Source: a virus
Virus record (IMG/VR): IMGVR_UViG_3300027917_000191
Span: 1 to 21,509 of that record
Length of the DNA stretch: 21,509 nucleotides
Direction: 5' to 3' (one strand)
Under the pieces are notes generated by a model. It made no database searches and was not told the DNA's origin. It saw only the letters and a program-made list of their open reading frames with translations. Made by a program: the position numbers and the translations under genes. Each line of letters opens with the position of its first letter. The first letter of the stretch is position 1. Shown here one piece after another: positions 9,532-19,907 of the stretch.

Positions 9532-11253
9532 TTAAAGACTGTTGGAACTGCTTGTTGAACTCAGCAACTCCTCCATTCTTAGGCGCAATTGGTCACGCAA
9601 TGTTTCTTTTAAATCCTGTGCATTGATTGCTAAACCTTCTTCATAGTCTGAACCTTGGTTTGCAATCTGTAATCTTAATTCGTATTCGCTGTGTGTTTCA
9701 AATGGCATGTACACTGTGGTACCGTCATTTAACACATGCTCGTGATAGCCTCTACCACCCAATTGCACAGCCCTTGCTTCTGCTTCAGTGGGTGTTGCAA
9801 AGTGTTCTGCTGTAAAACGTACAACGTCTGTGTAGAACACTGTGTCATATTTTTCAAACACTGAGATCAGTTTGTTTATTTCATCAATTTCTTTTTCAAC
9901 TGCTCTGGTGTTGTATTGTCTGTTATAGCTGATGCTGAAATCATCTGGCATGGTTTGATTTGTCCAGTCGAACCATATTTCCCACATGTTGTATTCAGCA
10001 TTTTCTAAATTGGTTGCTTTTTTGCGTATGAATGCTTCCATTTTTGCATCATACTCTCTAATCTGTTCGCCGCTTCTGGAACTTTTAATCAAATCATCTG
10101 TTCTGATCATGGCAAGTTCATTCATCTTGTCTATTTTTTGATCTACTAGTGCTCTTATTTCGCTGAGTGCTGTTAATGGAGGTGCGGCAAACTCATAAAC
10201 ATAATTTGGTTGTCCGTTTATGCTGTTTGGCACTCTTACGATCGAACCAGGTTCGGCCCCTAAATCTCCATTGTTTAGGTTGTCTGTTTCTTCATCAACT
10301 ACCAAACTGGGATGAGCACTGTAAGCAATAGTGCTGTATATTTCTGCCATGTCACCATACACACTTCTCTGTATTTGTGCTAGGTCAAATGTTGGTGTGC
10401 TACCAACACCGTTATAGATTTTTTGATTTTGATAGATTGCTTTGCAAGGGATATATCCGAGGGGATTCTCCTGCTGTATTACGAAAATGTTGTCTGCCAA
10501 TTGAATTAATTCTGGGTCATCGATAACTGGTGCATACTCATCATCGTCTTCACTGCCCATGAACACTGTGGCAATAGTGTCTTTGTCCATGTATCTGTAC
10601 ACAGTTTCGTTGTCATCACTGCTTAATTCAATTAGAATCTTGTTCAGTGTTAAATTTCCGTTTCTGTCATATGCATATTCCCAATTCTTCACACTGATTG
10701 GGTCATGCACTCTCCATTTTGGTATGTCATCATCGCCAAATTTGATACAACTAACCCATGTAACACCATACACTGTGGTTAGGATGTCCACTTGACTCCA
10801 AAATTCATTTATGCTGTTGCCCTCACCGTCAACATCGTTAACAAATGCATCTACTTCTGGTGTTTCTGGTAATACTCTGTGAGGTGGGCTTTTGAACAAC
10901 ATGCTGTTATACTCTGAAACGTATAACTTGAGGTAATTCATGTTGGGCACATTGTGTAACTTCTCGTAATAAAATGTGCCATCTAGGTGGTCTATGCCTT
11001 TTCTGGCTTCGTCGCTGGTTCTTACGTTTTCTACTTGGGCTTTAACTTTGCTCACATAACTGCCATCGGCATCCACCATGTAAGTGTTAATTGTTTCGGC
11101 TGGGGTTTGAGTATCGACTTGATATTGTTTTAGATATTGTCCCAATCTATACTCAGGTCCACCCCAGAAGGTGTTTACTGCTAATTTCCAGTCGCCTATG
11201 TATCGGTCGTATAAATTGTGGACACCTGTGATAAAATTAAGTAAATTATTCAC
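9532..11253 (-). CDS. Portal protein
   Basis: This 573-residue protein would form the dodecameric ring at one vertex through which DNA enters and leaves. It is long, mixed alpha/beta and rich in Asp, Asn and Tyr, and it precedes the scaffold and capsid genes. The segment 'LGYIPCKAIYQNQ' and the long helix 'KMNELAMIRTDDLIKSSRSGEQIREYDAKMEAFIRKKATNLENAE' region (about residues 375-420) resemble the wing/stem parts of phage portal proteins. The start is GTG at 11253, preceded by TTGGAG at good spacing, so the non-ATG start appears genuine. Late-promoter-like octamer GATAAATA lies about 40 bases upstream. Confidence 0.87.
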   Translation of the reverse strand: MNNLLNFITGVHNLYDRYIGDWKLAVNTFWGGPEYRLGQYLKQYQVDTQTPAETINTYMVDADGSYVSKVKAQVENVRTSDEARKGIDHLDGTFYYEKLHNVPNMNYLKLYVSEYNSMLFKSPPHRVLPETPEVDAFVNDVDGEGNSINEFWSQVDILTTVYGVTWVSCIKFGDDDIPKWRVHDPISVKNWEYAYDRNGNLTLNKILIELSSDDNETVYRYMDKDTIATVFMGSEDDDEYAPVIDDPELIQLADNIFVIQQENPLGYIPCKAIYQNQKIYNGVGSTPTFDLAQIQRSVYGDMAEIYSTIAYSAHPSLVVDEETDNLNNGDLGAEPGSIVRVPNSINGQPNYVYEFAAPPLTALSEIRALVDQKIDKMNELAMIRTDDLIKSSRSGEQIREYDAKMEAFIRKKATNLENAEYNMWEIWFDWTNQTMPDDFSISYNRQYNTRAVEKEIDEINKLISVFEKYDTVFYTDVVRFTAEHFATPTEAEARAVQLGGRGYHEHVLNDGTTVYMPFETHSEYELRLQIANQGSDYEEGLAINAQDLKETLRDQLRLRMEELLSSTSSSNSL

Positions 11254-11290: not shown

Positions 11291-11298
11291 TATTTATC
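11291..11298 (-). promoter_or_regulatory. GATAAATA late-promoter-like octamer upstream of portal
   Basis: The octamer fits NATAAATA, the late-promoter core of T4-like phages, and lies about 40 bases before the portal GTG. No better -35/-10 pair for the portal operon is seen. A matching sigma factor is not in the window, so function is inferred. Confidence 0.45.
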
Positions 11299-11424
11299 AC
11301 TGTGTCCAATATTTTGTGGGATATCGGTGTATTATGGGTAAGTACATAAGCAATAATCACGCAAATGATTTTGTAGTCGGTAAAACAAACTTAAATCTAA
11401 ACATGTTTAAGTTATAGTTGTGTT

Positions 11425-11521
11425 TTAGGTGTATCAACCGACGTACATCGTTAACTACGGCGTTATGGTGTGATAGCAATAACGTGACAAATAGCCAGAT
11501 TAATCCCCTGGCTATTTTTTT
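11425..11521 (+). ncRNA. Possible small structured RNA ending in terminator
   Basis: About 100 non-coding bases precede a strong plus-strand terminator, and no convincing open frame feeds into it. The stretch contains the inverted pair CGTTAT/ATAACG (around 11461-11484), able to form a hairpin, before the terminator stem. A weak promoter-like pair, TTAAAT-N16-TATAGT, ends at 11418. No known RNA family is recognised, and the 5' end is a guess. Confidence 0.3.
11489..11521 (+). terminator. Intrinsic terminator, plus strand
   Basis: A perfect 10-bp stem (AAATAGCCAG with CTGGCTATTT, loop of 9) is followed by a run of T. On the minus strand the tract after the stem is weak, so it acts mainly on plus transcripts. 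It ends only 6 bases before tRNA-Asn. Confidence 0.8.
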
Positions 11522-11527
11522 ATGTGT

Positions 11528-11603
11528 TGGCAAGTAGTTCAGTTGGTAGAACTCCTGACTGTTAATCAGGTAGTCGCTGGTTCGAGCCCAGCCTTGCCAG
11601 CCA
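11528..11603 (+). tRNA. tRNA-Asn (anticodon GTT), CCA encoded
   Basis: All arms fold: a 7-bp acceptor (TGGCAAG/CTTGCCA), D arm GTTC/GAAC, anticodon arm CCTGA/TCAGG around CTGTTAA, a 5-base variable loop, and T arm GCTGG/CCAGC with TTCGAGC. G73 and an encoded CCA follow, 76 bases in total. It is intact and so probably functional. It is on the plus strand beside the cargo operon and could supply Asn-tRNA for late protein synthesis. Confidence 0.97.
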
Positions 11604-11641
11604 AAATCCCTTAAAAATCCTCAAAAAACCACGAAAAAAGG

Positions 11642-11670
11642 TTGACTTCTGCCTGCATTTCTCATATACT
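11642..11670 (+). promoter_or_regulatory. Sigma70-type promoter of plus-strand operon
   Basis: TTGACT and TATACT are separated by exactly 17 bases, each with 5 of 6 consensus bases. Transcription should start near 11677, about 34 bases before the first gene. This is the best host-type promoter in the window. Confidence 0.85.
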
Positions 11671-11710
11671 AATAGAGTGAATTAACGGGTTATTGGAGGC
11701 CCTTACTATT

Positions 11711-12187
11711 ATGGCTACTGAATTATTTTGTACAAAAAGAGTCGTGTGTGATAAAGAGCACCAATATTGGTTAGACAGAACTACGCCTTTCCCCGGAATG
11801 CGTGAAGATGTTGCAGATCGTTACAGAATATGTAATCCTTATTATGATGAAGAGATTGTTAATAAGGATCATATAGGTGAAGATCAGTTTATTTCATATT
11901 ATCCTTATAGCAGAATCTTATCTTGGTGCGGATGGAGTATGAGAGCGTATGATGAAACAAATGGCTTTATCTGTAAAAGTAAAAGTAGTTCAAAATCTAG
12001 ATTAGCAAAAGAGTTAGCTGGATTTAAAAACTGTGACCCGTCTATTATATTAGATCATTTTGATGGAAACAGTATTTGGTATTGGGATTGCTACGACGCA
12101 GGCTATAGTGACAGAACTTGCCTAGAAACCATATACAATCCTAAAACTGGTAAGTCAACTTATTTTCCAATCGAGGAGGTGGCGTAA
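11711..12187 (+). CDS. Unknown Cys- and Tyr/Trp-rich protein, first gene of plus-strand operon
   Basis: This 158-residue protein has no recognised family. It carries eight Cys (positions 7, 13, 41, 73, 88, 108, 127, 137) and many Tyr and Trp residues (for example SIWYWDCYDAGYSD), with no signal peptide or membrane helix, so it is probably cytoplasmic. The ATG at 11711 is chosen over an upstream TTG at 11693 because that TTG lies in the GGAGG ribosome site. It is the first gene behind a strong sigma70-like promoter and is coupled to the next by a 1-base overlap. Early expression and a role against host functions or defences are possible from context, but unproven. Confidence 0.8.
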   Translation: MATELFCTKRVVCDKEHQYWLDRTTPFPGMREDVADRYRICNPYYDEEIVNKDHIGEDQFISYYPYSRILSWCGWSMRAYDETNGFICKSKSSSKSRLAKELAGFKNCDPSIILDHFDGNSIWYWDCYDAGYSDRTCLETIYNPKTGKSTYFPIEEVA

Positions 12188-12636
12188 TGGCACAGTTAGA
12201 AAAAAGACATATTAACACATTAGCAAAGTTGTTGGACAATTACAGTGTTGCTGATATTATTGAAGCGGCAAATGCTATTGAAAGTCACAAGAATGACATT
12301 GAAACATACAAAAAAGTGTTTGCTACAGATGATTCAGCAGTTGAATGGTTTAAAAACTTTTGTGCTCGATATAACCTAACTGTAAATCGTATAATGGTTA
12401 AATGTCGCGATGGGCAAGAAGTTCCATATGGTCGTTATGTTGTTGAAGAAATGCGTGACACATGTAAGCCTTATTTCACTCTGTGGATCAAAGACGGTCA
12501 CCAAAATCCAGATCAAACTCCTCATATTGAAATGGGTAACGGTCTAGAAGATTTATGGTGGGCTACTGGTTTGCAAGAGCTCGAACGCAAAATGCACAAA
12601 TTATGCCATATGGCTGGCATCAAAAAAGTCTCTTAG
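12187..12636 (+). CDS. Unknown 149-residue protein, second gene of plus-strand operon
   Basis: I do not recognise this protein. The N-terminal 55 residues look helical (LAKLLDNYSVADIIEAANAI), the middle has mixed structure with 'CRDGQEVPYGRYVVEEMRD', and the C-terminus is again helical with Cys and His (MHKLCHMAG). It appears soluble. Its ATG overlaps the stop of the preceding gene by one base (TAATG) behind a GAGGAGG ribosome site, so the two are probably made together. It belongs to the unit bounded by the promoter at 11642 and the terminator at 12890. Confidence 0.8.
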   Translation: MAQLEKRHINTLAKLLDNYSVADIIEAANAIESHKNDIETYKKVFATDDSAVEWFKNFCARYNLTVNRIMVKCRDGQEVPYGRYVVEEMRDTCKPYFTLWIKDGHQNPDQTPHIEMGNGLEDLWWATGLQELERKMHKLCHMAGIKKVS

Positions 12637-12648
12637 AGAAGGTGCATA

Positions 12649-12858
12649 ATGATTATCAAATTTGGCGACAGTAAACCTCGAGTGTTGCACAATTGGGAAA
12701 TATATTCTCCCAATCAGCCTATACACATCAAACAGAAGTATTGGCAGAACTATGATGTTGCATCCAGTTATGCCAAAATATTAAATGCCAAACATGGCGG
12801 TGCTTTTGCTGTGCGTTGGTGTAAACCTTATCCACAAAAACCAGTTCGCTTGTTGTAA
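12649..12858 (+). CDS. Small basic unknown protein, third gene of plus-strand operon
   Basis: This 69-residue protein is basic and aromatic (KQKYWQNYDVASSYAKILNAK), with a C-terminal 'FAVRWCKPYPQKPVRLL'. It lies 12 bases after the second gene with a ribosome site (AGAAGG) before its ATG, and about 30 bases before a strong terminator. Size and charge would suit a nucleic-acid or protein-binding inhibitor, but no family is recognised and this is only a guess from composition. Confidence 0.72.
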   Translation: MIIKFGDSKPRVLHNWEIYSPNQPIHIKQKYWQNYDVASSYAKILNAKHGGAFAVRWCKPYPQKPVRLL

Positions 12859-12889
12859 CAGTTTTCTCATTTTCCTGTTACACACAAGT

Positions 12890-12932
12890 AACCCTGCATG
12901 TGAATTATTCTCCTCACATGCAGGGTTTTTTT
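12890..12932 (+). terminator. Strong intrinsic terminator of plus-strand operon
   Basis: A perfect 14-bp stem (AACCCTGCATGTGA with its complement, loop of 10) is followed by seven T. On the minus strand there is no T-run after the stem, so late transcription can probably pass through. Confidence 0.93.
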
Positions 12933-12983
12933 GTGCACTACACTACTTGTTCTAACAACACACACACACTAAGTGCACACCTT

Positions 12984-12991
12984 TATTTATG
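12984..12991 (-). promoter_or_regulatory. CATAAATA late-promoter-like octamer
   Basis: This NATAAATA match overlaps the TAA stop of the minus-strand gene ending at 12987. It would drive transcription antisense across the plus-strand operon toward the portal gene. It may simply be a by-product of the stop codon. Confidence 0.25.
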
Positions 12992-19592: not shown

Positions 19593-19907
19593 TTACTGCT
19601 GTTTTTTGATTTCTTTGTTAACCCATGCAAGTGCTCTATCGCCACCCCATAGGTTGTATGCTTGTATTGCTTTGCTTGTTTTGTTGTCTAAGCCACGCTG
19701 TTTTGCTTGTCTATAGTTAGACTTTGCTCTGCTCAAATAACTACGCATTCTGATCAGTGTGCTCAAACTGAGATCTTCACCACTTGCCAATTGATTTGCT
19801 CTTGCCAGCCCTACCAATGTGCCTGCACGTCTACTAGGAGGCAATGTTTCTCTGTCTGCTAGTGCTTTTTTAGCAACGTCTCTGATATACCCTGGTGCTA
19901 CAGCCAT
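19593..19907 (-). CDS. Small phage protein with RMRSYLSR and LWGGD motifs
   Basis: This 104-residue protein carries 'GLARANQLASGEDLSLSTLIRMRSYLSR' (residues about 33-60) and a C-terminal 'YNLWGGDRALAWVNKEI' (84-100). The pairing of an R-M-x-S-Y helix with an LWGGD...W ending is familiar from many phage and metagenomic proteins of unknown function. The sequence is basic and helical, so a virion-internal or DNA-associated role is possible. It is the last gene before the terminator, and its start overlaps the preceding small gene by 10 bases. Confidence 0.72.
   Translation of the reverse strand: MAVAPGYIRDVAKKALADRETLPPSRRAGTLVGLARANQLASGEDLSLSTLIRMRSYLSRAKSNYRQAKQRGLDNKTSKAIQAYNLWGGDRALAWVNKEIKKQQ

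Follow-up and report, generated by a model that had tools for sequence, protein, structure and literature searches.

Why three genes that read against all their neighbours lie among the late genes of a phage, and what they could do there, is the question raised by this locus. The window, that is, the whole stretch of DNA analysed, is a linear 21.5 kb IMG/VR record from an uncultured tailed phage. According to the ORF list and to codon scoring over its full length, all confident genes are encoded on the minus strand except those at 11711-12858. The minus-strand genes encode a small terminase, an HNH protein, a methyltransferase, a large terminase, three small proteins, the portal, a probable scaffold protein, the major capsid protein and tail proteins, some of these names being assigned by order and size alone. 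The three plus-strand ORFs (P1, P2 and P3) lie in the gap that separates the portal gene from a small late gene, and the sign of the GC skew is reversed across the island.

The original prediction, made from the letters alone, described these ORFs as a unit with its own promoter and stem terminator, lying beside a tRNA gene and another terminator and encoding one product with eight Cys. All these elements were recovered (Table 1): the ORF coordinates were exact, the eight Cys were counted in P1 by inspection, the promoter hexamers and both terminators were found, that of the island with a 15-pair stem and a T run, and the tRNA gene was identified by ARAGORN and Rfam.

Table 1. Features of the island, of its surroundings and of two related loci (window positions unless a locus is named)
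Feature	Position	Strand	Remarks
Portal gene	9532-11253	minus	
GATAAATA, late-promoter-like motif	11291-11298	minus	upstream of the portal; aligned likewise in L004-L009
Noncoding segment adjoining the portal	11335-11521	plus	ends in a rho-independent terminator
Segment terminator	11490-11521	plus	stem 11490-11516, T run 11515-11521
tRNA-Asn (anticodon gtt)	11528-11603	plus	ARAGORN; Rfam RF00005, 70.5 bits; 3'-CCA encoded
Sigma70-like promoter TTGACT-N17-TATACT	11642-11670	plus	preceded by AAAAAAGG
P1 RBS GGAGG	11695-11699	plus	
P1	11711-12187	plus	158 aa; 8 Cys; orphan; ends in EEVA, stop
P1/P2 junction AGGAGGTGGCGTAATG	12174-12189	plus	strong RBS; overlaps both P1 stop and P2 start (TAATG)
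P2	12187-12636	plus	149 aa; relative in L003
P3	12649-12858	plus	69 aa; inverted relative in L004
Island rho-independent terminator	12890-12933	plus	15-pair stem 12890-12927, then TTTTTTT
CATAAATA, late-promoter-like motif	12984-12991	minus	reads antisense into the island
Other BATAAATA sites	17109, 19334, 19579	minus	
Candidate structured noncoding RNA	L009:4950-5235	minus of locus	fold z -4.9; 12/12 sigma70 promoter
Candidate structured noncoding RNA	L006:6760-7032	minus of locus	fold z -4.5; 12/12 sigma70 promoter

Coding status of the three inverted ORFs

Two ATG-initiated ORFs of at least 149 codons occurred in 0 of 2000 Markov-shuffled islands, so that ORFs of 158 and 149 codons together are improbable by chance. 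Codon log-odds per codon amount to -0.01 for P1, 0.15 for P2 and -0.08 for P3, versus 0.30-0.39 for the adjacent late genes; by this measure the island has the atypical composition looked for in a moron, part of which may be explained by differing codon usage of early and late genes.

P2 and P3 are, on the strength of these comparisons, real genes with one diverged relative each (41-53% identity). Indeed, (i) the sole relative of P2 is encoded in L003, at another site, with 41-44% identity and with neither P1 nor P3 present, (ii) the sole homolog of P3 (53% identity) is encoded in L004, inverted, at the same junction, next to a different partner gene and again without the other two, and (iii) both are conserved as proteins with changes biased to the third codon position, the differences between P3 and its homolog being distributed 26/23/42 over the three positions. 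The P2 homolog of L003, a contig that does not reach the portal, adjoins repeated leaders CGGCTGAATAGCCAGAGG.

P1, the longest ORF of the island, has no relative in phages, viral contigs or the fetched loci, and the evidence that it is coding comes from its ORF length and from the P1/P2 junction. The 16-mer AGGAGGTGGCGTAATG of this junction is also present in inverted islands of L010, L171, L173 (three copies) and L174. It was considered as a mark of a family-specific cassette and rejected as such, since the scan of viral contigs revealed a widespread stop/start junction, present in at least 119 viral contigs; among the viral-contig matches listed, 109 of 127 sites form an in-frame stop/start between ORFs of at least 40 codons. 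The junction thus supports coding and not shared descent. P1 and P2 were also compared as possible paralogs, a relationship that the comparison did not bear out.

The junction upstream of the portal in related phages

Relatives were found by protein scans with the portal and the large terminase, yielding 64 distinct relatives including the window (portal identity of at least 45%, near-identical records removed), of which 58 were informative; the contigs of the relatives are fragments. Over the interval from the small late genes to the portal, inverted genes are present at the junction upstream of the portal in 22 of these 58, most of them different genes, versus 34 with no inverted gene there, and two relatives carry an inverted gene elsewhere in the interval. 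In 15 of the 22 the inverted genes are preceded by portal-strand genes, and in the other seven only inverted genes are found up to terL or the contig end. These counts are lower bounds, because the simple codon-usage gene caller, trained on late genes, under-calls small foreign genes, and even in the window P1 and P3 escape it.

The content of this hotspot is variable. The inverted genes can be sorted into many groups that are unrelated to one another, the commonest of which has 15 members (the first being a 149-aa protein of L087) and no Pfam or PHROG match; an AAA-type ATPase gene lies at the junction of L006, and L171, L173 and L192 hold 9-12 genes each. In L004, the nearest relative spanning the junction (portal 79%), the P3 homolog is paired with a 77-aa protein that recurs inverted in L010. 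Apart from P3 in L004 and P2 in L003, P1-P3 are absent from all other surveyed relatives. The survey therefore indicates that P1-P3 do not belong to a conserved core and do not move as one unit.

This survey supports the proposal of a moron-like autonomous unit between late genes, as relatives have an empty site or a different inverted insert, and P1-P3, being absent from nearly all relatives, are not essential genes conserved at one place. The idea of an undescribed system was overstated: the island holds three small, unrelated ORFs that have not been conserved together, as L003 and L004 illustrate. The comparison of genomes with and without the island, proposed as a way to its borders, did yield empty and differently filled sites. 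The exact borders are not readable from them because among relatives with near-identical flanks none reaches across the junction; L085, with 98% TerL identity, ends inside terL.

A few further observations were made on these contigs. A second site for such genes adjoins homologs of window gene 19593-19907 (L366:1000-1945; L295, near 10042). In L366, which belongs to the L014 genome, whose portal junction is empty, this site carries an inverted gene similar to the 149-aa family of L087, with a strong promoter at position 953; in L295 the gene found there is a copy, 96% identical, of one from the L010 island. The block from the large terminase to the portal, including m95-type small genes, is inverted in L003, L089 and L225. 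The C-terminal portal residues 485-525 (..YMPFETH..) are matched at 50-70% identity in numerous contigs in which this portal is otherwise missing, and the match usually lies upstream of a gene homologous to window gene 19593-19907; as judged from these matches, this stretch is a shared mobile domain.

Transcription signals and noncoding segments

The predicted promoter of the island agrees with the consensus at 10 of 12 positions, and comparable sites arise by chance in this AT-rich DNA (16 promoter-like sites in the window versus 9.3 +/- 3.3 in shuffles). It gains weight from a family-wide enrichment. Indeed, when the pattern TTGAC(A/T/G)-N15-18-TATA(A/C)T was counted in the same relatives, the junction (68 kb) was found to contain 44 near-consensus promoters on the inverted strand versus one on the portal strand, and the DNA elsewhere (842 kb) 26, with eight on the inverted and 18 on the portal strand. 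Many of the junction promoters are perfect (12/12) and are preceded, as in the window, by an A-rich stretch and GG. The island also has a factor-independent terminator of its own, as expected of a moron, with no comparable T run on the minus strand.

The opposite strand carries another motif, (T/C/G)ATAAATA (BATAAATA). In the window it occurs five times, always on the minus strand; family-wide, 140 sites are intergenic on the portal strand, at a median of 57 nt before the next gene start, and the inverted strand has 30 intergenic and three coding sites. The motif is similar to NATAAATA, a late promoter of marine T4-like phages; T4-like late promoters are given as TATAAATA / NATAAATA (PMC2984593). 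The likeness to these promoters extends to its position, intergenic and on the late strand, whereas the family that carries it here has genomes of roughly 22-35 kb. A search for a T7-type RNA polymerase was silent and is uninformative because the control genomes were silent too. The simplest reading of these signals would be that the inverted genes are transcribed early by the host RNA polymerase and the virion genes from a different, late promoter; from the motif at 12991 we further infer a possible antisense shut-off of the island.

Between the portal and the tRNA gene, segment 11335-11521 could possibly be a small RNA. It shares, together with the portal start, about 76% identity over 155 nt with L004, which covers part of the segment, its core CACGCA..TTGTA is aligned in seven relatives, and its fold has a z of -2.5, terminator included. 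The tRNA-Asn gene begins 6 nt past the T run of that terminator, and no tRNA was found in other relatives with a portal hit. Neither for the segment nor for tRNA-Asn was a promoter identified, so that the tRNA would need read-through or another expression route. Rfam gave nothing in the island beyond the tRNA and nothing in L003-L009 at gathering thresholds, weak matches below these being disregarded. Conserved noncoding segments are present at the junctions of L004-L009. In two of these relatives, L006 and L009, the 270-290 nt after a 12/12 promoter give folds far stronger than those of shuffled sequences; these candidate RNAs are about 72% identical to each other and have no counterpart in the window. 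Furthermore, an element GGCGC..hairpin..GGGCTTGTCC, preceded by ATAAGTAA, lies between terminators and is conserved adjoining the portal in the six relatives L004-L009 (for example L008:3008-3212, minus strand).

Possible role of the island and comparison with known systems

The reading preferred here, with a probability of about 0.8, is that the island would be a moron-type accessory operon at a family-wide hotspot, expressed early from a host-sigma70 promoter, with cargo that is exchanged. Host sigma70 RNA polymerase would most likely use the promoter at 11642-11670 and read P1, P2 and P3 early after infection, with translational coupling of P1 and P2 through their overlapping stop and start and with transcript termination at 12890-12933. 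The virion genes would be driven late in infection by NATAAATA-type promoters on the opposite strand, and this transcription would probably pass antisense through the island. Since related phages exchange this cargo, the family may be able to do without it, and its probable target would be the host or rival elements, through takeover, counter-defence or exclusion; the swapping pattern by itself makes an accessory role towards host or competitors likely, and anti-defence would be one option among several.

As predicted, the products match no recognised family: nothing reliable was found for P1-P3 in Pfam, PHROGs, PADLOC (which covers defence genes, not counter-defence genes) or the PDB. The anti-defence, exclusion or host-changing function suggested in the original prediction is thus neither favoured nor disfavoured by these searches. 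The AlphaFold2 model of P2 (mean pLDDT 58) has a helical N-terminus and an alpha-beta C-terminus, both at low confidence, and that of P3 reaches a pLDDT of 67; both models are too uncertain for use. The C-terminal half of P2 weakly resembles a UEV/RWD-like fold in this low-confidence model, and the match to UEV/E2-like folds (Foldseek E about 1, VIA Z 3.5) is not significant. The fold search with P3 gave no significant match. A similarity of P1 to ubiquitin-conjugating enzymes (E2; phmmer E = 0.011) was judged probably due to chance, as it covers the N-terminal half alone and not the catalytic Cys region.

A more specific role, in which P1-P3 form a counter-defence or superinfection-exclusion operon, can be entertained tentatively, at odds well short of even. 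Such functions are typical content of morons and phage hotspots in the literature, as far as the available text of these sources goes (PMC9122126, PMC3573128), and small early-type orphan proteins would suit them, but P1-P3 match no defence or phage family searched, do not travel together and gave nothing significant in structure searches. A broader version is rather doubtful: the junction would be a reservoir of host-polymerase early cassettes and of structured RNAs foreign to Rfam, swapped to counter host defences, and P1-P3 would represent three new anti-host effector families. Expression from a prophage, with the island as a lysogenic-conversion moron, is unlikely. Classical morons are expressed in lysogens, and the island has its own predicted promoter and terminator; however, 18 related records of 22-34 kb, which may be incomplete, yielded no tyrosine integrase, and a scan of 84,980 bacterial and archaeal genomes gave no relative of the portal. 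Other integration routes exist, and these two results argue mildly against it. The scan of the genome collection with P2 was likewise without relatives, and so no host is assigned.

The two remaining explanations concern the ORFs themselves. It is quite improbable that they are partly spurious and that the true product is a noncoding RNA plus the tRNA: the codon scores of P1 and P3 are near zero and several close relatives have solely noncoding, strongly folding DNA at the junction, yet P2 and P3 show protein-level conservation with third-position-biased change, and the end of P1, the longest ORF, coincides with a junction sequence which elsewhere identifies genuine stop/start pairs. Least probable of all is that P1-P3 are core phage genes merely placed on the other strand, as their position among virion genes and the conservation of the region adjoining the portal might suggest; with P1-P3 absent from the surveyed relatives, save P3 in L004 and P2 in L003, and other genes or none in their place, this appears already contradicted.

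The locus is of interest beyond this phage, whose family is without a close cultured relative in the collections searched. Most cargo of such sites in uncultured phages escapes family searches, and a fixed address (upstream of the portal, inverted, behind a near-consensus promoter) would allow early accessory genes and RNAs of this kind to be harvested and tested for host-takeover or counter-defence activity.

The closest published case is P22 pid, a small ORFan in the late region, opposite to its neighbours and with a 3' rho-independent terminator, at a site where relatives have no insert or another insert (PMC3573128). The island shares this anatomy, agreeing with pid in orientation, predicted promoter and terminator, but it has three genes and an adjacent tRNA, and no sequence relation to pid is shown; P22 is temperate, but the family of the island gave no integrase (18 records). 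The available text on P2-like phages and P4-like satellites describes hotspots of antiviral systems (PMC9122126), and within that account the likeness is one fixed position whose cargo varies across related phages. Unlike those hotspots as described there, the cargo here has no known defence-gene match, belongs to a different phage family and is inverted with early-type promoters. The accessory island as a general kind and the idea of a hotspot are thus already known, to the extent covered by the available text of these sources (PMC3573128, PMC9122126); the new elements are the genes carried, the family of phages in which they occur and the crowding of strong inverted promoters into a single junction.
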